Below, in pieces: positions 47,528 to 62,258 of a stretch of 64,000 bases of DNA. Below the pieces are notes generated by a model. It saw only the letters and a list, made by a program, of their open reading frames with translations. It was not told where the DNA came from and did not search any database. How positions within the stretch are numbered: position 1 is the first letter of the stretch; every line of letters begins with the position of its first letter. A program made the position numbers and the translations under genes. Source of the stretch: Aliiroseovarius sp. S1123 (lineage in GTDB: Bacteria > Pseudomonadota > Alphaproteobacteria > Rhodobacterales > Rhodobacteraceae); the NCBI RefSeq assembly GCF_023015885.1, contig NZ_JALKBE010000004.1, forward strand, positions 186,001 to 250,000, given 5' to 3'.

Positions 47528-49910
47528 ACGCGTCTTTGTGCGTCTCGCCGCCGTGGGCGGCCGCCAGGTCAAGGCCGAGTTGCAGGGCATCGGCGATGCC
47601 GGGGCCCGTGGCCTCGGCCGTCTGTCGCGCGAGGTCGATGTGGCCAATGCACGCCTTGCTGCCTTCACGCGCCGGGCCACGATCGCAGCCGCGGCGGCAG
47701 GTGCCGCTGTGGTGGCGGCAGGTGCTGCAATGATCCGCTCGGGGCTGCAAACCATCGACGAGACCGCCAAATTGGCGCAATCGCTGGATACAACCGTCGA
47801 AAGCCTGCAGGTGCTGGAGCGGGCCGCTGACCTCTCGGGCGTCTCCATGGGCAATGTCGAGCAGGCAACGGTGCAGCTGACACGGCGGCTTAGCCAGGCT
47901 GCCGCAGGTGCGGGCCCTGCCGTCGATGCGCTGGACCGCCTTGGGCTGTCGGTCAGCGAGTTGCAAAATCTGCCGCTCGATCAGCGCATCGCTTTGATCC
48001 AGGACCGGCTGGCGGAGTTCGTGCCCGAGGCAGAGCGTGCAGCTGTCGCCTCGCAGCTCTTTGGCGATCGCGCGGCCCTCGTGTTCACGCGCATTGATAC
48101 CGCGACGCTGCGCCAGGCCACCGCTGATGTGAATGATTTTGGCATTGTTGTCTCCGAGCAGGACGCGGACCAGATTGAGCGCACCAACGACGCGATCTCG
48201 CGCCTCGGCCTAATCTGGCGCGGCGTCTCAAACCAGCTGGCGGTCGCTGCCGCGCCCGCGCTTGAGGCGGTGGCAGATGCGCTGGCGGCTATGGCGCGCA
48301 CCACCGGGCCTCTTGGAAGTGCCATTCAGGGTCTGTTTGAGAACATCGGACGGCTGACCACATTCGCCGTGGCCTTCGCAGGCGTGATGGCGGGCCGCTG
48401 GGTGGCTGGGCTTGTGGCCGCGACCTTCTCGGTCAGCGGTCTGGTGACCAGCCTGGTCTTCTTGCGGGCCGCACTGATCCGCACCGGCATCGGGGCACTG
48501 ATCGTTGGCGCGGGCGAGCTGGTCTACCAGTTCACGCGGCTTGTGGCCGGTGCGGGCGGCTTTGGCAATGCGCTGGACCTGCTCAAGGACGTGGCGGTCG
48601 AGGTCTGGGACCGGGTATCGCTTAGCGCAGATGCGGCTTGGGCACGCGTGGAAGCCGGATGGGCCACAGCGCAGGCTGGTATTTATGACGGTCTGCAAGA
48701 TGCAACAGCGGCGGTGGTCGGTTGGGCAAACAGCACCGTCAACACCTTCGAGGGCACGTTCCTTGCCGTGCAGGCCATCTGGGGCGCGCTGCCGGATGTG
48801 TTCGACCGGGTTGGGGCCCTTGCGATCAATGGCCTTGTCGAGGTCATGCAGACCGGCATTGCAGGCATCACCGAGGCGATCAACGGCGTGCTGACCCTTG
48901 GAGGCCTACGTCCTGAATGGGCCATCGCAGCACCTGATCTCTCGGAATGGAAGTCTGCGGTCCCCGAAGCCGTCAATTTGGGAGAGCGTGCGCGGGAGGC
49001 CTACGACAGCGCCTTCTCGGACAATCCCTTCCAGGTGCCTGAACTCTTTGGCGGCATGGCAGATGATGCGCGCGATCGGGCAGCAGGCTATTCCGAGGCG
49101 GCAGGCATGCTGTCAGACGCAGCTTCGCGCCCCATGACCGCCTGGCAGGCACTGAAGGATGCCATTTCTGGCGCGGGCGATGAAGGCGGCGCAGCGCTGG
49201 AAAGTGGCGCCAATTCAGCGGACCGGTTCAACGATGCGCTGGAGGAGACCGAGGGACAGGCCGGGCGCGCAGGTGGTGCGGCAAAGCAGGCGGGCGCCGA
49301 CGCAGCGGAGGGTGCAGGGGCAGCCGCCACTGGCTGGCAGGCCGTGGTGAATGCGGTCAGCGAATACGCGAACAAAGCCCGCGATGTAGGTGCAGACATC
49401 GGCAACGTGCTGGTGAGCGCGTTTCAAAGTGCGGAAGATGCGATTAGGAACTTCGTAAAGACCGGCAAGCTGGACTTCAAAGGCCTGGTTACATCGATGA
49501 TCGCGGACCTCGCGAAGCTCGGCGCGCGCAAGTTCATCCTAGGCCCCATCGCCAATGCCCTCTCCGGCGCGCTGGGCAACCTCGGCGGCATGTTTGCCGG
49601 TGTCTTCCACCAGGGCGGTATTGTCGGTGGTCCTGCGCCCTTGCGCATGGTGCCTGCCATGGCATTCGCCAACGCGCCCCGGATGCACGAGGGTGGCTGG
49701 GCTGGGCTCAAATCAGACGAGGTCCCGGCGATCCTGCAGCGTGGCGAACGCGTTCTGTCCCGCCGAGAAACGCGGGACTTCGGCGGCAACAATGGTGGCA
49801 GCGTGACAGTCAACATCCAGACCCGCGACGCGGAGAGCTTTCGGCAGAGCCGTACGCAGGTCGCCGCCGATATCGCTCGCGCGGTCTCCATGGGCCGGAG
49901 GGGCATGTAA
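47517..49910 (+). CDS. Tail tape measure protein
   Basis: A 798-residue protein whose length sets tail length. The start MADKRVFVRLAAVGG at 47517 has GGAGGG just upstream and overlaps the chaperone frame by 11 bases. The N-terminal part is coiled (VKAELQGIGDAGARGLGRLSREVDVANARLAAFTRRAT) and contains a hydrophobic stretch AAAAAGAAVVAAGAAMI; SLDTTVESLQVLERAADLSGVSMGNVEQ and membrane-like helices near residues 275-330 follow. The C-terminal end (GGIVGGPAPLRMVPAMAFANAPRMHEGGWAGLKSDEVPAILQRGERVLSRRE) is the conserved tape measure/lambda-H type tail. At this length a tail of roughly 120 nm would be expected by the usual rule; that is inference. Confidence 0.92.
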   Translation: MADKRVFVRLAAVGGRQVKAELQGIGDAGARGLGRLSREVDVANARLAAFTRRATIAAAAAGAAVVAAGAAMIRSGLQTIDETAKLAQSLDTTVESLQVLERAADLSGVSMGNVEQATVQLTRRLSQAAAGAGPAVDALDRLGLSVSELQNLPLDQRIALIQDRLAEFVPEAERAAVASQLFGDRAALVFTRIDTATLRQATADVNDFGIVVSEQDADQIERTNDAISRLGLIWRGVSNQLAVAAAPALEAVADALAAMARTTGPLGSAIQGLFENIGRLTTFAVAFAGVMAGRWVAGLVAATFSVSGLVTSLVFLRAALIRTGIGALIVGAGELVYQFTRLVAGAGGFGNALDLLKDVAVEVWDRVSLSADAAWARVEAGWATAQAGIYDGLQDATAAVVGWANSTVNTFEGTFLAVQAIWGALPDVFDRVGALAINGLVEVMQTGIAGITEAINGVLTLGGLRPEWAIAAPDLSEWKSAVPEAVNLGERAREAYDSAFSDNPFQVPELFGGMADDARDRAAGYSEAAGMLSDAASRPMTAWQALKDAISGAGDEGGAALESGANSADRFNDALEETEGQAGRAGGAAKQAGADAAEGAGAAATGWQAVVNAVSEYANKARDVGADIGNVLVSAFQSAEDAIRNFVKTGKLDFKGLVTSMIADLAKLGARKFILGPIANALSGALGNLGGMFAGVFHQGGIVGGPAPLRMVPAMAFANAPRMHEGGWAGLKSDEVPAILQRGERVLSRRETRDFGGNNGGSVTVNIQTRDAESFRQSRTQVAADIARAVSMGRRGM

Positions 49911-50539
49911 TGGCGTTTCACGAGGTGCGATTCCCCGACAACATCAGCCGCGGCGCGCGCGGCGGGCCACAGCGCCGCACGCAAATTGTCGAGCTTGCTT
50001 CTGGTCACGAGGAGCGGAACGCTTCCTGGTCTGCATCCCGACGCCGCTACGACGTCTCCTACGGGATCCGGCGCGCGGATGATCTGCACGCGGTGGTCGC
50101 CTTCTTTGAGGCCCGCCTCGGGCGGCTCTACGGCTTCCGGTTCAAGGATTGGGCAGATTACAAATCCTGCGCGCCCTCAAAGGGCGTTTCTGAGATGGAT
50201 CAGCTGATCGGCAACGGCGATGGCGAGACCACAGCGTTCGCGCTGACCAAAGCCTATGGCACTGCGCCCCACATCTACCAGCGCCGGATCGAAAAGCCAG
50301 TGGCGGACTCTGTGCGCGTTGCCTTGGGCGGTGCCGAGCAGTTCAACGGCTGGTCGAGCGACCCCACCACCGGAATCGTTACGTTTGAGGTCGCCCCCGA
50401 TCCGGGCGTCGTCCTCACTGCCGGGTTCGCCTTCGACGTCCCCGTCCGCTTCGACAGCGATCTGATGGACGTCACCCTCGATATCGAGCGCCTCGGCTCG
50501 ATCACCTCAATCCCGCTTGTGGAACTCCGCCTCAGCTAA
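49910..50539 (+). CDS. DUF2460 distal tail protein (GTA gp12 homologue)
   Basis: A 209-residue protein beginning MAFHEVRFPDNISRGARGGPQRRTQIVELASGHEERNASWSASRRRYDVSYGIRRADDL and containing RLYGFRFKDWADYKS, the hallmark of DUF2460. It is homologous to ORFg12 of the Rhodobacter capsulatus gene transfer agent, the distal tail protein. Its ATG shares one base with the tape measure stop (TAATG). In GTAs the gp13 homologue follows directly; here 6.4 kb of other genes come first. Confidence 0.92.
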   Translation: MAFHEVRFPDNISRGARGGPQRRTQIVELASGHEERNASWSASRRRYDVSYGIRRADDLHAVVAFFEARLGRLYGFRFKDWADYKSCAPSKGVSEMDQLIGNGDGETTAFALTKAYGTAPHIYQRRIEKPVADSVRVALGGAEQFNGWSSDPTTGIVTFEVAPDPGVVLTAGFAFDVPVRFDSDLMDVTLDIERLGSITSIPLVELRLS

Positions 50540-50550
50540 GGACCCCGCCC

Positions 50551-52521
50551 ATGCAAACCTATACGCCCCTTGAGCATCGCCCGGGCGACACGCCCCAGCT
50601 GTACGACATTGACGGCGGCCTCGTCACGCAGAACGCAAACGGCAAAGTCGTCCGCCTCAATTCCAGCCAGCAGGTCACAGCCGTCGCGCCAGTGCCGATC
50701 GAGGCCGAGGAACGCTATGCATTCCGCGCGGTGTTTCGGCGTGCCACCAACAGCCCCGATCCGTCCGACGACGCTATTGCCTGCGGCATCGACTGGCTGG
50801 CGGCGGACAAGACCGTGCTGTCCAGCACGACCGTGAACACCATCCTGAACTTCAGCGTCGCCAATGGGCGCCGCGAGGTCCGCACCTCGGTCGTGGCGGA
50901 AGCCGATGGCCCCTCCAGCGTCGTGGCCCCAATCGGCGCACGCTACGCCATTCCCTGGGTGCGCACGTTCGGGATCAACCACGCCACCGACGTCGAGGTC
51001 TGCAGCCTCGAGCGGCTGCCCTTTGTCTCGCTGCCCGTCGCGCGCACATTCTATGTCACCATGGACGGCAAGGACCTCAACGAGGGCTCCTCGCTGACCG
51101 CACCCTTGGCCAGCATTGCCGAGGGCCTCGCGCGCGCTGCAGCCCTCGCGTTGCCCGCCATCGTGATCGTCCAGCCTGGCGAATACATCGTGCCGCCAGA
51201 TACGGTGATCCCCGCCAATTGCACCCTTTACGGCTACGACCTGCGCGTCACCAAGCTGAGCCTGCCGCCCGGCCAAGAGGTGAACAACATGTTCCAGATG
51301 TCCAACGGCATCAAAGCCCGCGGCTTCACCTTCGCAAATCTGCGCCATGAGCCCTACACCCTGGCGGGCGGGCCACCGCAAAAGGGCTGGGCCTTCGTCT
51401 TCAAGCCCGGCGAGCTGCTCACGCGATCGCCCTATATCGCCGATTGCTCGCAGCTGCATGGCTTCACCCAAGACCAGATGGCCCTGCCCATCGACAAAGC
51501 CGCAGGCAATCCCCTGATGCCGCGCGGCGGGGGCAACCTGCTGGCCGACGGCTCGGTGCTGGCGCCTTCCTCCCCGCTGCGCTCGGTCGTGGTCGACAGC
51601 TTTACCGCGATCAACCCCAATGGCGTGGGCTATGCCGTCACCCGCAACGCCTTTGTCCAGCTGGTCTCGGTCTTCACCAACTGGGCCCGCGTCGGCCTTT
51701 GGGCCCATGACGGCGGCCAGATCACCGTCGCCAACTCCAACAACACTTTTGGCGATTACGCGCTGGCGGCGACCGGGTTTCGCAACACGGTCCAGATCGA
51801 AGGGCTGGCCGATACCGGCGTGCTGGCCACGCACACCGCTGCCGCCAACACTCTAACCGCTCAGACCGAGGCCATCATCACCGCCCTGATGGGCACGCGC
51901 TATCCAACCCTTGCAGGCTTCAATGGCCTCTCTGACCGCGACAAGGCCTTCACCGAGCGGGACACCCGCACCCTGCTGCGCAGTCTCATCAATGATCTCC
52001 GCTCAGGCCAGGACCGCGGCGCGCAGTCCTTTGCCAAAGGGCTCTTTGACTGGAACGCCAATTACGCCTTTTCCGTCGCCCTCGTGCCGCTGTTTCTGGC
52101 TACTTGGGAGCAGGTCCGCCTCGAGCTGGTCGACAGAATCACCAACAACGCGGCACAGGCGATGATCACCGCCATGATCGGATTAATTTCGGATGTCATC
52201 ATGCGCCCGCAGGATTACCGTGTGGGCTTTGCCTCCGTGATCGAGGCTACCGGCCAGCAGTTCAGCTACGCAGGCTCCGGCGTCAATTACAACGCGCTGC
52301 CCTTCAGCCAGCGTGGCACCGGCCGCGCCCCCGATCCCGCCAGCACCCTGCTCAAGACCGGCGGTGGCCGGATCTATGCCACCTTCTCCACCGAGGTCGG
52401 CGACACCTATCTCGGCGAAGACCTGCGGGTGGATTTCGAGCGCAACACCATCGAAGGCCAGGCCTTCTCGCGCGGTGTCCAGAACATCGCGCTTCCCCTC
52501 ATCATCGGTCTCGGAGCCTGA
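50551..52521 (+). CDS. Tail fibre/appendage protein, beta-helix type
   Basis: A 656-residue structural protein. The N-terminal 150 residues look like a virion-anchoring jelly-roll (QTYTPLEHRPGDTPQLYDIDGGLV). Residues about 165-430 fit a right-handed beta-helix: FYVTMDGKDLNEGSSLTAPLASIAEGLARA is the usual DG..DN.G...AP..SI..A entry motif seen in pectate-lyase-like and phage structural proteins, then short repeated strands (IADCSQLHGFT, VVVDSFTAINPNGVGYAVTRNAFVQLVSVFTNWARVGLWAHDGGQITVANSNNTFGDYAL). A helical C-terminal part follows. Likely a receptor-binding or glycan-binding appendage; enzymatic activity is not evident. Confidence 0.75.
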   Translation: MQTYTPLEHRPGDTPQLYDIDGGLVTQNANGKVVRLNSSQQVTAVAPVPIEAEERYAFRAVFRRATNSPDPSDDAIACGIDWLAADKTVLSSTTVNTILNFSVANGRREVRTSVVAEADGPSSVVAPIGARYAIPWVRTFGINHATDVEVCSLERLPFVSLPVARTFYVTMDGKDLNEGSSLTAPLASIAEGLARAAALALPAIVIVQPGEYIVPPDTVIPANCTLYGYDLRVTKLSLPPGQEVNNMFQMSNGIKARGFTFANLRHEPYTLAGGPPQKGWAFVFKPGELLTRSPYIADCSQLHGFTQDQMALPIDKAAGNPLMPRGGGNLLADGSVLAPSSPLRSVVVDSFTAINPNGVGYAVTRNAFVQLVSVFTNWARVGLWAHDGGQITVANSNNTFGDYALAATGFRNTVQIEGLADTGVLATHTAAANTLTAQTEAIITALMGTRYPTLAGFNGLSDRDKAFTERDTRTLLRSLINDLRSGQDRGAQSFAKGLFDWNANYAFSVALVPLFLATWEQVRLELVDRITNNAAQAMITAMIGLISDVIMRPQDYRVGFASVIEATGQQFSYAGSGVNYNALPFSQRGTGRAPDPASTLLKTGGGRIYATFSTEVGDTYLGEDLRVDFERNTIEGQAFSRGVQNIALPLIIGLGA

Positions 52522-52525
52522 ACCT

Positions 52526-52939
52526 ATGGTCACCATCACCACACCGCGTCCACCCCTCAATCTGTTCGAGGTCGTCCGTGCAGAAATCGGCGTCGAGTGG
52601 ACGACCATCTATGACGTGCCCGACTACCTGATCCCCGCCGAGGGTCCAAACCCTGCGCGCAGCATCGGCACCGCCGCCATCATGACTGGCGTGCTGATCA
52701 CCCCCACCGCTGAGGCCGCCGTGCGCGTCTCGATCCGGATCCTCGCGCTCAATAACACATCCTGGCTTTTGCTGGACCGCGCCTTCGCCCCCGCAGGTGA
52801 TGTTCTCTCCATCGGGCTCGATCGCCAGGTGCTGCGCGCGGGCGAGCGTTTCCAGATGAAGGTTGAGGCCAGCGAGACCGCCATCGCGCATTTCTCCTTC
52901 ATCCTCAACCAACGCGAAGATTTCACGGTGATCGCATGA
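52526..52939 (+). CDS. Phage structural protein (137 aa)
   Basis: Starts MVTITTPRPPLNLFEVVRAEIGVEWTTIYDVPDYLIPAEG five bases after the fibre stop. Strand-rich, with VSIRILALNNTSWLLLDRAFAPAGDVLSIGLDRQVLRAGERFQMKVEASETAIAHFSF, the pattern of a small virion collar or fibre-attachment protein. Translationally coupled (ATGA) to the repeat fibre that follows, so it may be its chaperone or base. Confidence 0.65.
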   Translation: MVTITTPRPPLNLFEVVRAEIGVEWTTIYDVPDYLIPAEGPNPARSIGTAAIMTGVLITPTAEAAVRVSIRILALNNTSWLLLDRAFAPAGDVLSIGLDRQVLRAGERFQMKVEASETAIAHFSFILNQREDFTVIA

Positions 52940-55806
52940 GCATCCTGCGCTATGCCACAGGCCGCGGCCGCTTTGTCGGCCAGTCCCTCATCTACCCCGT
53001 CCCGATCCCGCTGGATGCTGCGCAGTACTTCGGGGCGGCGGTGGTGGGCGAGAACGGCCAGTTCTATTATTCCAACGGGCTCGAATGGATCGTACCCATC
53101 GAGGATAACGAGATCCTGCGTCCCTCGGCCCTCGTGCCCTTCAGCGTCGATGAGCGCACCCAGCTGCGCCTGACCACGTTTCGCTCGCCTGCGGGCCTTG
53201 AGCAGATCGGCACCATCTTCGAGATTTCCACCAATGGCGCGGATTTCGAGGGATCGCTGACGCGGATCGTTCCGGGTTTTGGCAATGCCTATCAGATCGA
53301 GTTTCCCGAGGACGGCTTTGGCCCCGGTGACCGCGTGCTCTGGCGCGCGGCCTATACCGGCACCGGCGGGGCGCAATCGAACTTCTCGGTTCCCTATGCG
53401 CAGACCTTTCCGGACCTGATCTCGCGCCCCAGCCCAATAACCCGCGAGAATGCCATCACCGGCACCGTGCGTGTGACGGATTTCGAGAGCGCCGCGATCT
53501 TCGGCTATGGCTATGCCGAGACCCAGACCGAGTTCTATGCTGCAGACGCCACGCCGGGTATCGACGCACCCCTGATCACCGTGACCCAGACCGGCGGAGC
53601 GATCACCACTGTGCCGATCCCGGCTTTGGAACCTGCCCAAAACTATCTCTGGCGCGCGCGTTATGGCGGGCGGCTCAATGCGGCCGCACCCGTGATCTAC
53701 TCGGCCTGGTCGAGCCCGCGCAGCTTTTTTCTGGGCGCGGCCTCACTGATCCTGACCTATGATCTGGAGCTCGCCACTGCGCGCACAATCTACATTCCCC
53801 TCGGCGGCGGCACCGTGAACAACCCGCTCGATGTCACCATCGATTGGGGCGATGGCACCAGCGAGCGCTACACCACGGCCGGGATCAAACCGCATCTCTA
53901 CGCCGAAGGCGCAGGCCCACGCGTCACCGTCACCATCACCGGGCGTCTGGATTGGTATGGCACCACCCAGCCAATCGATCAGGCCGGATTGGTGCGCGTC
54001 GAGAATATCGGCTTTGCCATGGGGCTCACGTCTTTGCGCGGCGCGTTTCGCCAGACCACCACGGCGCTGGACTACATTACCCCCAACATCCCCGAGACCG
54101 TCACCAGCTTTGAGGAGCTGTTACAAGAAAGCCTCTGTGCGGCCGACCTGCGCGACATGGACACGCGCAACATCACCACACTGCGTCGCATCTTTTTTCG
54201 CTCCGACGGCACCGGCCCCAATTGCGCAAACTGGGACGTCGGCCGCGTCGAGGACGTGTTTCAGGCTTTCGCCGACAGCCAGATGAACAGCTCGTTCTCC
54301 CTTGGCAATTGGGAAAGCCTCACCTCGATGGAAGAGATGTTTGTCCAGACCATCGGTGATTACTACGGCGGTCGTGACGGCCGCGTGCGCTTCAACCAGC
54401 CCATCGGCTATTGGGACGTCAGCCGCATCACTAACATGCGGCTGATGTTCGGCTGCACCATGCGCGCCAATGCGGGCAAGATCGGGGCCGACTTCAACCA
54501 GCCGATCAACGGCTGGGACGTGCGCGCGGTTCAGAGTTTTGAGGGGTTCATGGGGCATCTCGGCAATCCGGGGATCAGCCTGAACACCCATGCTTTCAAT
54601 CAGCCCTTGAGCCAGTGGAACACCTCTGCCGCAACCAACATGACCCGCATGTTCGCGCTCGCCCGCAGTTTCAACCAGGACATATCCGGCTGGAATACCG
54701 CCAATGTCACCACCATGGCCGGGATGTTCCGCGGTGTGGCGGGGGTGCACGGGTTCAACCGCAGCCTCAATGCCTGGGACGTCTCAAACGTTATCGACAT
54801 GAGTGAGATGTTCTCCTTTAGCGATTACAATCAGCCGCTGGGAGCCTGGAACGTCGCAAACGTCACCACCATGCGCGCGATGTTTCTCAGCGGGCTGTTC
54901 AACCAGCCGATTGGGGCGTGGGTCGTTTCAAGCGTCACCGACATGGCCTTCATGTTCGCCTCCGCCAGCACCAACCAGCAACGCGCCTTCTTCGATCAGG
55001 ACATCGGGGCGTGGGATGTGTCATCTGTCACCGACATGGAGGCAATGTTTGGCGCGGTCGGCGCTGGCAGTGACCAGCGGGCGGACTTCAACAACGGCGG
55101 CAGCCCGTCCATCTCCGGTTGGGATGTCTCCAATGTAGCCACCATGCGCGCCATGTTCCGCTCGGGCGACAGTGGCAGCCGCAATCCCTATCATCGGTTC
55201 AATCAGCCCATTGGCGCCTGGAATGTCGCCAATGTCACCAGCATGCGCGACATGTTCCGTGGCTACCGCCAGAGCTTCGATCAGGACATCTCGCAATGGC
55301 CACTTCGGCCTGCAGGCGTCGATCTGGCGGATTTCATGGCAGTTGATGTCGATCGCGCGTTTTCCGAAGCCAACTATTCGCGCCTGCTCACGGGGTGGGC
55401 CAATCGCGTTGATGCCGTCAGCGGGCCGTTTCTCGTGCCCTTCGGCACGGCCGACCGGGTCTACAACACCACCGTCTACCAACCCGCCTCGCGCTTTACG
55501 AATGCGGACGATGCGCGTGTGTTTCTGGTCGCACCCCGCAGCGTCTCGGTCGCGGGCGCGTCCACCGTGGACGCGGACGGCACATACACCTTCGACGCCG
55601 CAACCGGCCTCTATGCCAAGGCGACCGGCTGGTACTTCCTCAAACTGGGCTCAACCTGGACCCTCTATGACGCGACTGATGCCCCCCAGGCCAGCGGGGA
55701 CGCCAATCTGCCATGGGAGGTGACAGCCTGGACCGGCGTTTTGAGCACCGCAACGCTGCGCAACGCGGGCGCGGCCTGGACCATCACGGGAGATATCGCA
55801 GCATGA
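52936..55806 (+). CDS. Tail fibre with BspA-type (DUF285) repeats
   Basis: A 956-residue protein. The first 270 residues contain two fibronectin-like domains (LEQIGTIFEISTNGADFEGSLTRIVPG; WRARYGGRLNAAAPVIYSAWSS). After a linker domain with LDVTIDWGDGTSERYTTAGIKPHLYAEGAGPRVTVTITGRLDW, a long array of BspA-like DUF285 repeats runs from about 350 to 810: F(N/D)QxIxxWxVSxVTxMxxMF, for example FNQPIGYWDVSRITNMRLMF and FNQDISGWNTANVTTMAGMF. A compact C-terminal domain ends the protein. DUF285 proteins usually bind surfaces. It is probably the main receptor-binding fibre. Confidence 0.85.
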   Translation: MSILRYATGRGRFVGQSLIYPVPIPLDAAQYFGAAVVGENGQFYYSNGLEWIVPIEDNEILRPSALVPFSVDERTQLRLTTFRSPAGLEQIGTIFEISTNGADFEGSLTRIVPGFGNAYQIEFPEDGFGPGDRVLWRAAYTGTGGAQSNFSVPYAQTFPDLISRPSPITRENAITGTVRVTDFESAAIFGYGYAETQTEFYAADATPGIDAPLITVTQTGGAITTVPIPALEPAQNYLWRARYGGRLNAAAPVIYSAWSSPRSFFLGAASLILTYDLELATARTIYIPLGGGTVNNPLDVTIDWGDGTSERYTTAGIKPHLYAEGAGPRVTVTITGRLDWYGTTQPIDQAGLVRVENIGFAMGLTSLRGAFRQTTTALDYITPNIPETVTSFEELLQESLCAADLRDMDTRNITTLRRIFFRSDGTGPNCANWDVGRVEDVFQAFADSQMNSSFSLGNWESLTSMEEMFVQTIGDYYGGRDGRVRFNQPIGYWDVSRITNMRLMFGCTMRANAGKIGADFNQPINGWDVRAVQSFEGFMGHLGNPGISLNTHAFNQPLSQWNTSAATNMTRMFALARSFNQDISGWNTANVTTMAGMFRGVAGVHGFNRSLNAWDVSNVIDMSEMFSFSDYNQPLGAWNVANVTTMRAMFLSGLFNQPIGAWVVSSVTDMAFMFASASTNQQRAFFDQDIGAWDVSSVTDMEAMFGAVGAGSDQRADFNNGGSPSISGWDVSNVATMRAMFRSGDSGSRNPYHRFNQPIGAWNVANVTSMRDMFRGYRQSFDQDISQWPLRPAGVDLADFMAVDVDRAFSEANYSRLLTGWANRVDAVSGPFLVPFGTADRVYNTTVYQPASRFTNADDARVFLVAPRSVSVAGASTVDADGTYTFDAATGLYAKATGWYFLKLGSTWTLYDATDAPQASGDANLPWEVTAWTGVLSTATLRNAGAAWTITGDIAA

Positions 55807-56378
55807 CCAACAGTTTCACGGCAACCGAGCAGACCTTCTGGATCGCGCATTCCGAAGGCGCGCTTGAACACGGCATCCTTGATCCGGGCACACGGATCGA
55901 TACTGGGCAGGCATATCTTGAGACCTACACCTCCGCACGGGCCTGGACCCTCCGGATTGCAGCACTCCGCAAGGATTATGTCAGCGCGGTCGCCGCATGG
56001 CGCGAGACTCTGCGCCTGCGCGATCCGTTTGCAATGCTGGCCGATCATCGCTGGCGACATGAGACCGCGGGTCTTGATCTGCCGGGCGGGCAGCGCATCC
56101 AGACCACACGCGAAAGCCAGGCGCAAATCACCGCAATGGTCAATTCGCTGCAGATGGGCCTCATTTCCGAACCCGTCACCTACAAGCTCGACAGCGGATG
56201 GGCAGAGTTGACTGCGGCTGAAGTGACAGCGGTGGCGCAGGCGGTGGGCGGCCATGTCAAAGCCTGCTTCAGGGCCGAGCGCGGAGTGGCGGCGCAGCTT
56301 GAGGCCATGGTCGACTCCGAGAGCGCCGATGTGGCCGGGCTATTCGAGGCAGCATACCTTTTGGAGGTGACGCAATGA
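55803..56378 (+). CDS. Tail-fibre-associated protein (DUF4376-like)
   Basis: A 191-residue protein starting with an ATGA overlap. The C-terminal half, RIQTTRESQAQITAMVNSLQMG and WAELTAAEVTAVAQAVGGHVKACFRAERGVAAQLEAM, matches the DUF4376 pattern (helical, found in fibre assembly proteins of phages). It probably helps fold or attach the preceding fibre. It is coupled by ATGA to the heme-oxygenase-like gene. Confidence 0.65.
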   Translation: MTNSFTATEQTFWIAHSEGALEHGILDPGTRIDTGQAYLETYTSARAWTLRIAALRKDYVSAVAAWRETLRLRDPFAMLADHRWRHETAGLDLPGGQRIQTTRESQAQITAMVNSLQMGLISEPVTYKLDSGWAELTAAEVTAVAQAVGGHVKACFRAERGVAAQLEAMVDSESADVAGLFEAAYLLEVTQ

Positions 56379-56908
56379 CCCTGTTTGAAGCCACGCGTGA
56401 TCAGCATCACGCTTGCGAGCAACATCCGCTGGGGCGTCGCATGGCGGCAGGCAATATCACCCGCGCCGAGTGGGCGGCCTGGCTGAATGCGTTTCGAACG
56501 CTGCACCAAGTGGTTGATCTGGCGCTGCCTGCGGATATGCAACGCGATACGCTGTTGGCTGCGGACCTGTCCGTCCTGCCGTCGGTGCCTCCAAGTCGGG
56601 CGGCGCTGCGGTTTGCGCTTGATCTTTGTGGGGTGGACACGACCGGCGCGGCTTATGTGCTGCACGGCGCGCACCGCTCAGGCGGGCGGGTTCTTGCCCC
56701 GACGCTGGTCAAGCGCGGTCTGCCCTGTGCGCACATTACCTACCGAGATCCCGAGGCTGTGCAGGCCTGGGTCAAGCAGACCCGCGGCCGAGATGATCTC
56801 GCTTCGCAGGCAAGAGCAACCTTCGCATGCTTGCTGGCCGTGATGGACGAGATCATCGCGCGTGAAGATTTAGCAGCGCCAGTCGCAGAGGTGGAGAGCC
56901 AACAATGA
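56375..56908 (+). CDS. Heme-oxygenase-like protein
   Basis: A 177-residue helical protein. The N terminus TLFEATRDQHHACEQHPLGRRMAAGNITRAEWAAWLNAFRTLHQVVD has the position and spacing of the first two helices of heme oxygenases, with His 11/12 at the place of the proximal heme ligand. LLAADLSVLP matches the L..DL..LG segment, and AAYVLHGAHRSGGRVLAPTL matches the YV.EGS.LGG distal helix. A final helix is RATFACLLAVMDEIIAR. It lies in the tail operon, overlapping both neighbours by ATGA. Whether it binds heme is unknown; it could also be a structural protein using this fold. Confidence 0.65.
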   Translation: MTLFEATRDQHHACEQHPLGRRMAAGNITRAEWAAWLNAFRTLHQVVDLALPADMQRDTLLAADLSVLPSVPPSRAALRFALDLCGVDTTGAAYVLHGAHRSGGRVLAPTLVKRGLPCAHITYRDPEAVQAWVKQTRGRDDLASQARATFACLLAVMDEIIAREDLAAPVAEVESQQ

Positions 56909-57789
56909 AGAGCCTCTCACCCGACCTGCAAGCCCATCTCGATAGCGGCACCACAACGCTGGCCTGGTGCTGGCGGCTGACCCGTGCCGATGGCGTGAGC
57001 TTTGGGTTTACCGATCATGACCGGGTGCTCGCGTTTGACAGCACCGCGTTCGAGCCTGAGAGCGGATTAACCGCCTCGGAGATCCGCACCGGGTCTGATC
57101 TGTCGGTGGATGCGCAGGACGCCGAAGGCGCGCTGACCTCTGATCGCATCAGCGAGGCTGATATTCTGGCCGGGCTCTGGGACGCGGCTGAAGTTGATGT
57201 CTGGCGCGTGAACTGGGCCGACCCCGACCAGCGGGTGCTCATGCGGCGTGGGGCCATTGGCGAGATCCGGCGGGGCCAGACCGCCTTCATCGCCGAGATC
57301 CGCAGCCTTGCTCATATTCTGGGCCAGACCGTTGGGCGGATGTTCCAGAGCAGCTGCGATGCCGATCTTGGCGATGGGCGCTGCCGGATCGATCTCAATG
57401 ACCCGGCCTTCACGGGCACCGGGGCGGTTCTCGAACCTCTGCGCGATCGGGTGTTTCGGGCCGCAGGGCTCGGCGCGTTTGATCCCGGCTGGTTTGCCTT
57501 CGGCACGGTTGAGTGGGACAGCGGTGAGAATGTAGGACGCCGGATCGAGGTCCTGTCACATGAGGTCACGGACGGCATTGCTACCCTGACCCTGCTTGAA
57601 GCCCTCGTCTGGCCGATCGCAACCGGCGACACCTTCACGGCCCGCGCGGGCTGCGACAAGCGGATCGAGACCTGTGCAGCAAAGTTTGCCAACAGCGCCA
57701 ATTTCCGAGGCTTTCCGCATATCCCGGGGCAGGACACGATCCTGCGCTACGCCACGCGCGATGGCGGGCATGAGGGAGGGGTGTTGTGA
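56905..57789 (+). CDS. DUF2163 tail tip protein (GTA gp13 homologue)
   Basis: A 294-residue protein: MKSLSPDLQAHLDSGTTTLAWCWRLTRADGVSFGFTDHDRVLAFDSTAFEPESGLTASEIR, then IAEIRSLAHILGQTVGRMFQSSCDADLGDGRCRIDLNDPAF and a C-terminal domain with AGCDKRIETCAAKFANSANFRGFPHIPGQD. This is the DUF2163 pattern of ORFg13 in the gene transfer agent. Conserved cysteines (SSCDADLGDGRC; GCDKRIETC) match those that bind an iron-sulfur cluster in related tail hub proteins. Confidence 0.92.
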   Translation: MKSLSPDLQAHLDSGTTTLAWCWRLTRADGVSFGFTDHDRVLAFDSTAFEPESGLTASEIRTGSDLSVDAQDAEGALTSDRISEADILAGLWDAAEVDVWRVNWADPDQRVLMRRGAIGEIRRGQTAFIAEIRSLAHILGQTVGRMFQSSCDADLGDGRCRIDLNDPAFTGTGAVLEPLRDRVFRAAGLGAFDPGWFAFGTVEWDSGENVGRRIEVLSHEVTDGIATLTLLEALVWPIATGDTFTARAGCDKRIETCAAKFANSANFRGFPHIPGQDTILRYATRDGGHEGGVL

Positions 57790-58280
57790 TGAACGTCGCT
57801 TCCAGCGGAAACGACGGGCGGCAGTGCATCGCATCGGGATGCACGAGAGCACCAGCTGATCCCGACCACGTCATCACCGCAGCGCGTGCCTGGCTCGGGA
57901 CACCGTACCACGATCAGGCAAGCCTGCGTGGCGTCGGCTGCGACTGCCTCGGGCTGGCACGCGGCGTCTGGCGTGATGTGGTTGGGCCGGAGGTGTTTGA
58001 GGTCCCGCCCTACAGTCGCGACTGGGGCGAGACCGGTCCACGCGAAGTGCTCGCTGAGGGTGCGCGAAGCATGATGATCGAGGTTGAACCTGCTGATATG
58101 GTGCCCGGTGCGCTCGTGCTGTTTCGCATGGCACCGCGCGCGATCGCCAAACATGTCGGGATCGTGACCAGTCCTGGCACTTTCCTGCACGCTTATGAAC
58201 GGCTCGGTGTCATCGAGGAACCGCTCACCTCGTCCTGGCGTCGGCGCATCGCCTTCGCCTTCCTGTTTCCGCAACGCTGA
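57789..58280 (+). CDS. NlpC/P60 tail-associated peptidase (GTA gp14 homologue)
   Basis: A 163-residue cysteine peptidase. After an N-terminal stretch of about 40 residues the core HVITAARAWLGTPYHDQASLRGVGCDCLGLARGVWRDV carries the catalytic Cys in GVGCDCLGL, and the catalytic His is in AIAKHVGIVTSPGTFLHAYERLGV. It probably locally digests peptidoglycan when DNA is injected. ATG 57789 shares a base with the DUF2163 stop (TGATG); a GTG one codon earlier is possible. Confidence 0.92.
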   Translation: MNVASSGNDGRQCIASGCTRAPADPDHVITAARAWLGTPYHDQASLRGVGCDCLGLARGVWRDVVGPEVFEVPPYSRDWGETGPREVLAEGARSMMIEVEPADMVPGALVLFRMAPRAIAKHVGIVTSPGTFLHAYERLGVIEEPLTSSWRRRIAFAFLFPQR

Positions 58281-58289
58281 GGTGTCTGC

Positions 58290-61200
58290 ATGGCCACGCT
58301 TGTTCTCGGGGCCGTCGGCACCGCCATCGGCGGCAGCATTGGCGGGTCTATTCTTGGCGTCAGCGCCGCCACCATCGGTGGCTTTGTCGGCTCCACCATC
58401 GGCTCAGCCGTTGACAGCTGGATCGTGTCCTCCCTGGCACCAAGTCAGCGCATCGAAGGTCCACGGCTCGACAGCTTGCGCATCACTTCCTCAACCGAAG
58501 GGGCTGTCCTCCCGCGCGTTTACGGTCGCATGCGCATGGGCGGCAACGTGATCTGGGCCACGGATTTCCGCGAAGAGACCAACACAACCACGCAAGGTGG
58601 CGGCAAAGGCGGCGGCGGTGGTAAGGTCACGACCACCGAGTATCTGTATTTTGCGAGCTTTGCTGTGGCCCTTTGCGAGGGGCCAATCACCGGGATCGGG
58701 CGCATCTGGGCTGATGGCAAGTTGCTCGATACCGCAGGCATCACCTGGCGCTGGTATCCGGGCGACGAGGTGCAGACAGCCGATCCGTTCATCGCGGCGA
58801 AGATGGGTGCGGCCAGCACGCCCGCTTATCGCGGCACCGCCTATGTCGTTCTTGAGGATCTGGCGCTTGCCAATTACGGCAACCGCTTGCCGCAGCTGAC
58901 CTTCGAGGTCTATCGGCCGCTGGCTGACACCGACACCGCCGAGGGGCTCACGCGCGTCATTGCGTTCCTGCCAGGCACCGGCGAGTTCGCCTATGCCACG
59001 ACTGGCATTCGCAAGGGCAGCGACGGGGCGCAGACCCCAGAAAACCTGACCGTGCTCACCGCCACCACCGATATGCTGGTGGCGCTGGATCAGCTGCAGG
59101 CCAGCGTGCCAAACGTGGAAAGTGTGACTTTGCCTGTTGCCTGGTTCGGGGATGACCTGCGCGCGGGGGTCTGTCAGATCAAGCCGGGTGTCGAAGTCGC
59201 GGTGAAGATCACCAGCCCGCAGACCTGGCGCGTCAATGGTGTGGCGCGCGTCACTGCTCATCTGGTGAGCCAAACCAGAGATGGCCGCCCGGCCTATGGC
59301 GGCACACCGGCGGATTTTGCGCTGATTGAGGCGATACGTGAGGCAAAGGCGCGCGGGCTGCGGGTCACGCTCTCGCCCACACTGCTGATGGATGTTCCGC
59401 CTGGGAACACCCGACCCAACCCGTATTCCGACAATGCGGGGGACGTGGGTCAGCCGGACTATCCGTGGCAAGGGCAGATCACCTGTTCTCCGGCAGCGGG
59501 CTATGCCGGGACCGTGGATAAAACTGGCACGGCTGCTGCCCAATTGGCCGGTTTTTTTGGCACTGCGACATCTGCGCAATTCGTGGTTTCTGGGGAGAGC
59601 GTCAGTTGGACTGGCGCCGCCGATGACTGGGGGCTGCGGCGCATGGTACTGCACTACGCCCATCTCGGCGCAGTTGCTGGCGGCGTCGATACCTTCCTGA
59701 TTGGCAGCGTAATGCCGGGGCTGACCACAATCCGCTCGGGCGCATCCACCTATCCGGCCGTGCAGGCGCTGCGCGCTCTGGTGGCCGATGTGCGCGGCAT
59801 TCTTGGGCCGGGCACAAAGATCAGCTACGCCGCTGACTGGCGTGAGTATTTTGGGCATCACCCCGGCGATGGCAGTGGTGATGTGCATTTCCACCTCGAC
59901 CCGCTCTGGGCCGATGCCGAGATCGATTTCATTGGCATCAACAATTACATGGCGCTGTCGGACTGGCGCGACGGGTTTGAGCACACAGATGCGAACGAGG
60001 GTTGGCCTGCAATCTATGATCGGATCTATCTGCAGGCGAACATTGCTGGCGGCGAAGGCTTTGATTGGCTCTATGCCAGCGCGGCTAATCGGGCGGCACA
60101 GGTTCGCGCGCCAATCACTGATCCTGACCATGACAAGCCGTGGGTCTTTCGGCCCAAGGATCTGCGCAGCTGGTGGTCGAATGCGCATTTCGATCGGCTG
60201 GGCGGTGTGGAGAGCGGTTCGCCCACCGCATGGGTGCCGCAATCCAAACCGATCCGGTTCACCGCCCTTGGCTGCCCCGCCATCGATCGTGGGGCCAACC
60301 AGCCCAGCGTTGCAGCGCATCTGAGCCCGTCTGGCTCGGCGCTGCCACATGCCTCGCGGGGCTGGCGCGACGACGCGATCCAGCGCGCCTATCTCGAGGC
60401 CACATACCTCTGGTGGGGCGAGGCTGCGAACAATCCGGAGTCATCCATTTTTGGTGGCCGGATGGTCGACAAATCAGAAACGACTGCCTGGGGTTGGGAC
60501 GCACGGCCCTATCCGTTTTTCCCAGAAATCGCCGCAGGCTGGGCCGATGCGCCCCACTGGCGGCTTGGCCCTTGGCTGACGGGACGGCTCGGAGCGGTGT
60601 CGCTCGCGGCTCTTGTGCGCCATCTCTGTCTGCGCGCCGGGTTGCCAGCGTCCCGCATCGACGTCTCCAGCCTTTGGGGCGCGGTCGAGGGCTATGTCAT
60701 CAGCGCGCTGGAAGCCCCGCGCGCCTCCATTGGCATCCTCGCACGGCATTTCGGGTTCGATGCCGTTGAGACACAAGGCATGATCCGCTTTGTCATGCGT
60801 GGGCGTGGGGCCAGTGCGGTCCTTGATCTGGACACACTCGTTCCCGCCGGTCGTGAAGGCGAGGCCATCGAGAAGACCCGCGGCCAGGAAACCGAACTGC
60901 CCCAAGCCCTCAAATGGCAGGTCGCCCGCGCCGATGAGGATTATGAGGCCGCGCTTGTTGAAGCCCGCCGCATCACTGTCACCGCCAGTCGCATCGCCTC
61001 TGAGCGCTTTCCGGTTGCGGTGCCGCCCGAGGAGGCCGAACGCAGCTGTCGGCGTGCCTTGATGGAAGCCTGGACGGGGCGCGAAAGTGCAATGTTCCGA
61101 CTGCCGCCCTCACGTCTTGCGCTGGATCCAGCGGATGTCGTCACGCTCATCGAGGGCGACCGTCAGGCCGATTTCCGGCTCGTGTCCATCGGTGATGCCG

Positions 61201-62258
61201 ACGCCCGCGCGATAGAGGCGGTGCGCCATGACCGCAACGTCTATGATCTGCCATCCGGTGTGCCGCGCAACGCCGCACCTGGCATTGCCACGATCTTCGG
61301 CACCCCGGTCGCCGTGATCCTTGATCTGCCGCAGCTGCGCGATGAATTGTCCACGCATCAACCGCTTGCTGCGGCGCATGCCGCACCTTGGCCCGGCGAG
61401 ATGGCCGTGTTTCGCAGCCCAACTGACGATGGTTACACGCTGCTGACATCACTTTCGGCGCGCGCCAGGATCGGCACGCTCGTCGCCGACCTGTCATCTG
61501 GCCCCACGTCGCGCTTTGATCTGGGCAACGCGCTGACCGTCGATGTGCTGTCTGGTACGCTGGAAAGCGTCACCGATCTCGCGCTATTTGGCGGCGCCAA
61601 TGCGCTGGCTGTCGAGAGTTCGCCAGGTCTCTGGGAGGTGCTCCAGGCCGGGTCAGCCGAACTGATTGCACCGGGGCGCTATCGCCTGACCCGCCTCCTA
61701 CGCGGTCAGCGCGGCACGGAACTCGCCATGGGCAATCCAACAGCCGCTGGTGCACGCGTTGTGGTGCTGAATGAGGCCCTGTCGCCGCTACCCATCGCCG
61801 AGGCTGATCTGGGCATCCCGTGGAACTGGCGCATCGGACCCGCCAGCAGGCCTTTTACCGATGAGACCTATATTGCGCAGACCTTCACCCCGGAAGGCGC
61901 GGGGTTGCGGCCATTCGCGGTTGGACATGTTTCGCAACCCTCGCTGAGCGGCCGCGTGCCGGGCGACTTGGAGGTCCGCTGGGTCCGGCGATCGCGGGCG
62001 CTGGCTGCCGATAGCTGGGCCGCGGCGGAAGTGCCGCTTGGCGAAGAGACTGAGGCTTATCTGATGGAAGTTTTGGACGGCACCGCGATCAAGCGCCGCC
62101 TGCAGGTCAGCGCGCCGCAAGCGACCTACAGCGCCGCTGACCAGATTGCCGATTGGGGCGGGCTGCTGGGGCCCGGCGACACCCTCACGCTGCGCATTGC
62201 CCAGCTCTCAGCCCTTTATGGGCCGGGCGCAGCAAAGACCGTCACCCTCCAGTTCTGA
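58290..62258 (+). CDS. Tail tip / host-specificity protein (GTA gp15 homologue, TIM-barrel-like)
   Basis: A 1322-residue protein. The N terminus is Gly-rich and hydrophobic (LVLGAVGTAIGGSIGGSILGVSAATIGGFVGSTIGSAVDSWI), followed by PRLDSLRITSSTEGAVLPRVYGRMRMGGNVIWATDF, a hallmark of gp15-like megatron proteins. Residues about 330-620 are a glycoside-hydrolase-like TIM barrel (GTKISYAADWREYFGHHPGDGSGDVHFHLDPLWADAEIDFIGINNYMALSDWRDG). A tail protein domain follows (LCLRAGLPASRIDVSSL). The C terminus contains ALRPFAVGHVSQPSLSG-like fibronectin parts. It forms the tail tip and may contact the host envelope. Confidence 0.93.
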   Translation: MATLVLGAVGTAIGGSIGGSILGVSAATIGGFVGSTIGSAVDSWIVSSLAPSQRIEGPRLDSLRITSSTEGAVLPRVYGRMRMGGNVIWATDFREETNTTTQGGGKGGGGGKVTTTEYLYFASFAVALCEGPITGIGRIWADGKLLDTAGITWRWYPGDEVQTADPFIAAKMGAASTPAYRGTAYVVLEDLALANYGNRLPQLTFEVYRPLADTDTAEGLTRVIAFLPGTGEFAYATTGIRKGSDGAQTPENLTVLTATTDMLVALDQLQASVPNVESVTLPVAWFGDDLRAGVCQIKPGVEVAVKITSPQTWRVNGVARVTAHLVSQTRDGRPAYGGTPADFALIEAIREAKARGLRVTLSPTLLMDVPPGNTRPNPYSDNAGDVGQPDYPWQGQITCSPAAGYAGTVDKTGTAAAQLAGFFGTATSAQFVVSGESVSWTGAADDWGLRRMVLHYAHLGAVAGGVDTFLIGSVMPGLTTIRSGASTYPAVQALRALVADVRGILGPGTKISYAADWREYFGHHPGDGSGDVHFHLDPLWADAEIDFIGINNYMALSDWRDGFEHTDANEGWPAIYDRIYLQANIAGGEGFDWLYASAANRAAQVRAPITDPDHDKPWVFRPKDLRSWWSNAHFDRLGGVESGSPTAWVPQSKPIRFTALGCPAIDRGANQPSVAAHLSPSGSALPHASRGWRDDAIQRAYLEATYLWWGEAANNPESSIFGGRMVDKSETTAWGWDARPYPFFPEIAAGWADAPHWRLGPWLTGRLGAVSLAALVRHLCLRAGLPASRIDVSSLWGAVEGYVISALEAPRASIGILARHFGFDAVETQGMIRFVMRGRGASAVLDLDTLVPAGREGEAIEKTRGQETELPQALKWQVARADEDYEAALVEARRITVTASRIASERFPVAVPPEEAERSCRRALMEAWTGRESAMFRLPPSRLALDPADVVTLIEGDRQADFRLVSIGDADARAIEAVRHDRNVYDLPSGVPRNAAPGIATIFGTPVAVILDLPQLRDELSTHQPLAAAHAAPWPGEMAVFRSPTDDGYTLLTSLSARARIGTLVADLSSGPTSRFDLGNALTVDVLSGTLESVTDLALFGGANALAVESSPGLWEVLQAGSAELIAPGRYRLTRLLRGQRGTELAMGNPTAAGARVVVLNEALSPLPIAEADLGIPWNWRIGPASRPFTDETYIAQTFTPEGAGLRPFAVGHVSQPSLSGRVPGDLEVRWVRRSRALAADSWAAAEVPLGEETEAYLMEVLDGTAIKRRLQVSAPQATYSAADQIADWGGLLGPGDTLTLRIAQLSALYGPGAAKTVTLQF

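Follow-up and report, generated by a model that had tools for sequence, protein, structure and literature searches.

Gene content and order of the locus

The window (the whole stretch analysed here, 64,000 nucleotides from Aliiroseovarius sp. S1123, contig NZ_JALKBE010000004.1, positions 186,001 to 250,000) carries genes for terminase, portal, protease, major head protein and tape measure between 36 and 50 kb. After the tape measure region come the gene of a DUF2460 protein, which we take to be RcGTA g12, a fibre cassette, the gene of a heme oxygenase (HO) family protein, and then the hub, NlpC/P60 and GTA_TIM genes, which is the RcGTA order (Table 1). The names g11 to g15 follow PMC7296036; this and the other papers are cited by PMC number from excerpts of their text. 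As the window lies in a 3.23-Mb genome of 21 contigs, on a contig of 300,069 bases, the element is called an apparent prophage, and the HO gene appears to sit in its RcGTA-like tail module. No tRNA was found in the window, and promoter- or terminator-like sites around the HO gene were no more frequent than shuffled sequence gives.

Table 1. Tail-module genes of the apparent prophage around the HO gene (window positions)
Feature	Position	Strand	Basis
Distal tail protein, DUF2460, RcGTA g12-like	49910..50539	+	Pfam/PHROG (PHROG name 'glycoside hydrolase'), gene order
Tail-fibre/tailspike-like protein, 656 aa	50551..52521	+	PHROG tail fiber and baseplate families
Small fibre-cassette protein, 137 aa if ATG 52526 is the start	52526..52939	+	ORF 52313-52939
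Large DUF285-repeat protein, 956 aa, fibre-cassette member	52936..55806	+	PHROG matches of unknown function
DUF4376 protein, 191 aa, PHROG 'tail fiber protein', directly upstream of the HO gene	55803..56378	+	Pfam, PHROG (both scans run on the longer ORF from 55713)
Heme oxygenase family protein, 177 aa	56375..56908	+	Profiles, models, alignment, conservation
Baseplate hub protein, RcGTA g13-like, ATGA overlap with the HO gene	56905..57789	+	Pfam, PHROG
NlpC/P60 tail peptidase, RcGTA g14-like	57786..58280	+	Pfam, PHROG
Megatron/host-specificity protein (GTA_TIM, Rcc01698_C), RcGTA g15-like	58290..62258	+	Pfam

The HO-family reading frame has an ATG start, 177 codons and no internal stop. Its ATGA overlaps with both neighbours, the DUF4376 gene upstream and the hub gene downstream, had been described in an earlier note on this DNA and are borne out by the sequence and the printed junctions; the motifs named there are also found in the protein, TRDQHH at residues 7–12, LLAADL at 60–65 and GAHRSGG at 98–104. 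Their recurrence in the relatives described below shows that they exceed chance.

The fibre cassette (50551-56378), situated between the genes like g12 and g13, consists of the genes for the 656-aa fibre-like, the 137-aa, the DUF285-repeat and the DUF4376 proteins; other loci, too, have it together with the HO gene. The 656-aa protein has no Pfam match at E ≤ 1. ORFs placed similarly to that of the 137-aa protein are present in loci L137 and L138. The 956-aa protein contains six stretches of DUF285, a family named from Mycoplasma, and is probably an adhesin. No HxH iron motif was found in the 656-aa, DUF285 or DUF4376 proteins.

Fold, heme-contact residues and likeness to known heme oxygenases

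Recognition of the family needed profiles. Used as a single query, the window protein matched no Pfam, PHROG or NCBIfam model; PF01126 run against it alone gave no match at E ≤ 1 nor at E ≤ 10, and phmmer against PDB returned one lysozyme at E 0.98, dismissed as chance. The profile of 29 members, compared with PDB sequences, gave 17 matches at E ≤ 10, of which 16 were HOs, with HO-1 the best (E 0.0018) and plant HO chains also matched at a very distant sequence relation (E 0.0046). PF01126 was matched by 16 of the same 29 members at E ≤ 10 (best E 6.3e-5). In hhalign the subfamily aligned with eight BphO-type bacterial HOs at E 4.4e-11 (score 72) and with four HmuO-type bacterial HOs at E 7.7e-6 (score 42), these E-values each referring to one comparison and not to a database search. 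For orientation, BphO-type and HmuO-type HOs score 64 against each other, and the controls, for which profiles were reversed or had their columns shuffled (100 times for either comparison, 200 in total), reach at most 20.2. Against HO families the profile comparison is clear, though the window protein alone misses PF01126.

The AlphaFold model of the window protein, built from 29 aligned members, has a mean pLDDT of 93.5 and a pTM of 0.88. It gave 59 PDB matches at E ≤ 0.001; among the 50 matches listed all were HOs, the best at E 1.7e-5 and TM 0.78 by query length. A distant member (L108) was modelled from a 30-row alignment, some members of which are common to the first model's alignment (pLDDT 96.3, pTM 0.91), and its 50 listed PDB matches were again all HOs (best E 2.3e-5). 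In the search of predicted viral structures two matches to the window-protein model passed E 0.001, both of them phage 'heme oxygenases' from BFVD with 20–21% identity. The window-protein model shows the HO fold with a short disordered C-terminus and no attachment domain. Structure prediction, which the earlier note had named as a check, gives the HO fold and not another, and the models of two distant members match HOs among the matches listed.

Alignment with HO-1 is gap-free at each motif and pairs H11 with His25, the proximal heme ligand, E15 with Glu29, H44 with Tyr58, D48 with Glu62, Y94 with Tyr134, A99-H100 with Gly139-Asp140, G103-G104 with Gly143-Gly144 and R137 with Arg183. When this alignment is extended by eye, F150 would be the equivalent of Phe207, which presumably has a role in HO. 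The roles of the other residues in HO are taken from the excerpts of PMC7948506 and PMC5623701. Conservation was followed in 98 distinct cores, the window included (126 rows before duplicate removal). H11, W36, D48, D64, Y94, G103, G104, H120, F150 and M157 are present in all 98, so conserved His and Gly residues do exist among the homologues, as H11, G103 and G104 exemplify; T7, E15, H17, A99, H100 and R137 are present in 97, H12 in 96, H44 in 95 and C14 in 92. The equivalents of the propionate contacts Tyr134 and Arg183 are kept (Y94 in 98/98, R137 in 97/98), while the distal Asp140 of the HO-1/HmuO type is absent, position 100 being His in 97 sequences and Tyr in one, the bacterial-genome member L134. 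Residue 97, at the position of HO-1 Tyr137, is T, H, V, I or L across the 98 sequences.

Part of this motif conservation is built in, as HHACE and GAH served as search patterns in the profile scans. Among the 13 sequences without the proximal pattern, His is found at position 11 in all 13 and Glu at position 15 in 12, the exception being L201, whose N-terminus looks cut or frameshifted, so its His may be chance. Position 100 is His in six and Tyr in one of the seven sequences without the distal patterns, and D48, D64, H120, R137 and F150 lie outside both patterns and carry no search bias. In L201:3005-3499 the usual N-terminal helix is missing in frame. Three members from genomes of the host's family (L133, L134, L135) have Gln for H44 and Ala for C14, and L133 also has Asp in place of H12. 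L220, a genome-derived sequence from another family of the class that lies outside the 98, has Thr at position 100 and no H17; this sequence (L220:1459-1989) is perhaps intermediate between the present subfamily and the BphO-type HOs.

The best profile–profile match is to bacterial HOs with the distal motif YVLEGSxLGG, for which we assume the name BphO. The likeness lies in the YVL-x-G...GG distal helix and the proximal T..xxH..E, whereas the subfamily is phage-borne and has a distal motif that is one residue longer and contains Ala-His, and no PHY-domain phytochrome was found in the host. With the HmuO/HO-1 type (PF01126) the subfamily shares the fold, the gap-free distal spacing and equivalents of His25, Glu29, Tyr134, Gly143-144 and Arg183; it differs in having His for Asp140, Ala for Gly139, His for Tyr58 and Leu for Arg136, and the window protein has 177 aa against 215–233 in the PDB chains. 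The spacing of bacterial HOs that had been ascribed to the protein is therefore that of the HmuO/HO-1 distal motif, and one residue longer than that of the BphO type. Since alignment with the BphO type needs a one-residue gap in the distal helix, the pairing of H100 with Asp140 is one that we infer.

The distal pocket also resembles that of plant HO-1, which according to the excerpt of PMC7948506 has a natural Ala149-His150 at the distal place and an alternative hydrogen-bond network. Shared with plant GmHO-1 are the Ala-His pair, the equivalents of Tyr144 and Arg188 and, as far as that excerpt describes it, the lack of a distal Arg; GmHO-1 itself differs by a shifted ligand His that lacks the Glu bond. 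As the plant enzyme has His there, the distal Asp140 is not required across the whole HO family (PMC7948506). In human HO-1, Asp140His lowers activity (PMC7948506) and Asp140Ala turns the enzyme into a peroxidase (PMC5623701). Judging by the predicted fold, the profile comparison and the kept heme-contact residues together, membership of the HO family is practically certain; the description of the protein as like bacterial heme oxygenases stands in these respects, and the place of the catalytic Asp is taken by His.

Distribution of the relatives and their gene neighbourhoods

The subfamily is common on viral contigs and rare in bacterial genomes. A first scan of IMG/VR found 40 relatives, and two profile scans found 124 and 133, the best 80 of each being kept; all three sets overlap. 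Among GTDB contigs, 47 pattern matches included two relatives, one in Roseovarius sp. TE539 and one in a Rhodobacteraceae MAG. Profile searches of genomes gave matches in at least 4 of 394 genomes of the family, at least 2 of 385 of the class and at least 2 of 398 of the phylum, all lower bounds with at most nine candidates scored per genome and the window's own genome counted each time. The second match from the phylum (L221) looks like an ordinary BphO-like protein. For comparison, 15 of the 240 genomes of the class that were searched have a PF01126 match at E ≤ 0.001. The tblastn search of three members against 50,697 phage records gave no credible match, a ribonucleotide reductase region at E 0.6 being set aside, and tblastn of the window protein against plasmids gave no match. 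The single-sequence genome search reported 51 of 198 genomes at E ≤ 0.1, all but the window's own at E ≥ 0.0023, and these were taken as noise. No paper on this subfamily was found among the top-ranked results of the open-access literature.

Gene neighbourhoods were compared in 66 distinct loci, many of them on short contigs. Relatives of the 656-aa fibre protein or the DUF285 protein occur in up to 51 of the 66. This is an upper figure, as single-linkage clustering may merge proteins through repeats or shared domains, and as members up to 5 kb away are counted; by phmmer with the window proteins, the 656-aa protein is found in 42 and the DUF285 protein in 36 of 88 loci with duplicates kept. 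The 15 loci without either fibre relative include the group of L107, L108 and L110, which have no fibre-cassette relatives in the fetched flanks, as well as contigs whose start is close to the gene; none of the seven scanned neighbours in L108 matches a tail family. The placement within a tail-tip operon suggested by the earlier note holds in the window, but a hub relative was found near the HO gene in just 27 of the 66 distinct loci. DUF4376 was considered as a constant partner of the HO gene and rejected, as PF14301 detects it in only 9 of 42 contigs.

Fibre genes accompany the HO gene in phages of differing make-up. In the podovirus-like L010 and L087 the next large upstream gene encodes a tail fibre (PHROG 819 and others) 358–380 bases away, and downstream of the HO gene L010 has genes for a lipoprotein (weakly spanin-like), an endolysin/peptidase and an internal virion protein. 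L094 has fibre and L-shaped-fibre-assembly genes around the HO gene, and the upstream proteins of L077, L084 and L088 match tail families. Three of the seven scanned upstream proteins, those of L097, L016 and L105, have no PHROG family match, and some neighbours thus cannot be recognised as fibres. In L138, from another genome of the family, the whole gene order equals that of the window; L137 has the fibre cassette and the HO gene with no hub relatives within the 14 kb fetched, and in the 14 kb of L136 no relative of the window's tail genes was found. In L220 a relative of the 656-aa fibre protein directly follows the HO relative. Across the loci, the HO gene and the tail-fibre (receptor-binding) cassette tend to move together, an association seen in most of them.

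Similarity between loci was also correlated with that of the HO gene. Over all loci the coefficients were 0.50 for DUF4376, 0.49 for DUF285, 0.40 for gp15, 0.38 for the 656-aa protein, 0.16 for NlpC and 0.13 for the hub. In thinned sets of 12 and 13 loci, rho was 0.61 and 0.64 for DUF4376, 0.23 to 0.34 for the hub, 0.56 for gp15, 0.42 for NlpC, and 0.45 and 0.35 for DUF285. The HO gene tracks DUF4376 better than the hub, an observation that is suggestive only.

Possible functions of the phage-borne protein

Computation shows an HO fold, nearly invariant heme contacts, a phage setting and fibre neighbours in most loci. Heme binding by the window protein is predicted with good confidence, and we lean, with some reserve, towards a heme-binding, heme-degrading enzyme that is carried with a receptor-binding cassette. 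The gene belongs to a mostly phage-borne HO subfamily and is situated among late virion genes ('late' being read from gene position); in this prophage the receptor-binding cassette occupies the place between the distal-tail and hub genes, with the HO gene along with it. The protein would bind one b-type heme with H11 as the proximal ligand, the propionates being contacted by Y94 and R137, would receive electrons from host ferredoxin or a similar donor, and would open the ring to biliverdin, CO and Fe via the Ala-His distal pair, as in plant HO-1. More speculatively, the benefit could be iron late in infection or the removal of host heme, and a new receptor-binding cassette could bring the HO enzyme along. 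Against the heme-degrading reading count the failure of single-sequence searches to match a family, the absence of Asp140, the Tyr (L134) or Thr (L220) found at position 100, the Gln for H44 in three genome-derived members, the share of motif conservation that the search patterns build in, and the negative searches for a bilin reductase on 42 contigs and for a bilin reductase, PHY domain or TonB-hemin receptor in the host, described below.

Phages are known to carry HOs, as in the hemO-pcyX/pcyA-alaS cassettes (pelagiphage, CB_2) and in cyanophages, and HemO of CB_2 is a phage enzyme of proven activity that makes biliverdin IXalpha (PMC11480375). In the excerpted text of that paper, phage HOs are auxiliary metabolic genes tied to bilin and tetrapyrrole pathways. 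In contrast, the present subfamily adjoins tail fibres, and no bilin reductase was found on 42 viral contigs (of the 82 viral loci then fetched), none of which has a stated completeness of ≥90%, so that these fragments may miss one. On this ground the window gene does not seem to belong to a hemO-bilin cassette of the known kind. By the models used, the host genome has no bilin reductase and no phytochrome PHY domain, TIGR01785 finds no TonB-hemin receptor in it, and no other PF01126 match is seen at E ≤ 10, in a search that misses the prophage gene too.

The near-invariance of the heme-contact positions speaks against the proposal that the fold was taken over for a heme-free tail part. A related explanation, which we hold to be unlikely though worth weighing, keeps the heme and makes the protein part of a fibre or baseplate complex, where it would display heme to a host receptor or sense redox state or O2 at adsorption. 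The recurrence of fibre-gene neighbours in phages that are unlike in the other structural genes nearby, the lack of a bilin reductase on the 42 contigs, the closer tracking of DUF4376 (rho 0.61, 0.64) than of the hub (0.23 to 0.34), and the existing hypothesis of iron in phage tails (PMC11705849, in excerpt) are all consistent with such a role. The correlations with gp15 (0.56) and NlpC (0.42), however, are of about the same size as those with DUF285 (0.45, 0.35), the model has an HO fold with a short disordered C-terminus and offers no attachment domain, the host genome has no match to the TonB-hemin receptor model, the flanks of L107, L108 and L110 lack fibre-cassette relatives, with tail families matched by 0/7 neighbours of L108, and a fully conserved catalytic pocket exceeds what ligand display needs. 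In a wider form of the idea, which we consider doubtful, several kinds of tailed phage would incorporate a heme-loaded HO relative into their receptor-binding apparatus or deliver it along with that apparatus. Its heme chemistry would then come into play during adsorption or entry, either by presenting heme to a surface receptor or by checking redox state or O2 before DNA is released.

The next gene suggests another partner, as the hubs of RcGTA and R4C hold an Fe-S cluster (PMC7296036, PMC10276861) and the window hub keeps Cys151, Cys160, Cys250 and Cys257 at the known Fe-S domain place, with its start overlapping the HO stop codon in ATGA. That the protein serves as an iron source or redox helper for this cluster is nevertheless very unlikely, given that a hub relative is near in only 27/66 loci, that in the podovirus-like L010 the genes downstream are instead those of a lipoprotein, an endolysin/peptidase and an internal virion protein, and that RcGTA and R4C have such hubs while the word heme is absent from the main text of PMC10276861, the R4C paper. 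A heme peroxidase or other heme enzyme that is not an oxygenase is suggested by the departure from HO-1 at both distal positions, where Gly139 is replaced by Ala and Asp140 by His; Asp140Ala makes human HO-1 a peroxidase, and a title cited in the excerpt of PMC5623701 pairs the G139A mutant with oxygenase-versus-peroxidase control. We give this little credence, as Ala-His loses weight as a sign of a peroxidase with the same pair present in plant HO-1, which is described as an HO (PMC7948506). Least of all do we expect an enzyme of the HO fold that uses a non-heme diiron centre or another metal, a most improbable reading to which the many conserved His and Asp residues (H11, D48, D64 and H120 in 98/98, H17 in 97, H44 in 95) could lend themselves: the position of the diiron Glu of MMOH/RNR, which is that of HO-1 Tyr137 (PMC5623701, in excerpt), corresponds to residue 97 and bears T, H, V, I or L, not a carboxylate, the conserved set matches the heme contacts of HO, and the listed fold matches are all HOs.

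The subfamily is set apart from the phage HOs of PMC11480375 by the lack of a bilin partner on the contigs checked, by a plant-like distal His in its heme pocket and by fibre neighbours in differing phages, and it raises the testable question of why a phage would link heme chemistry to a host-recognition cassette. The link to the fibre cassette may also reflect hitch-hiking, the region being variable and home to other morons such as the glycosyltransferase in L010 and the sulfotransferase in L094.
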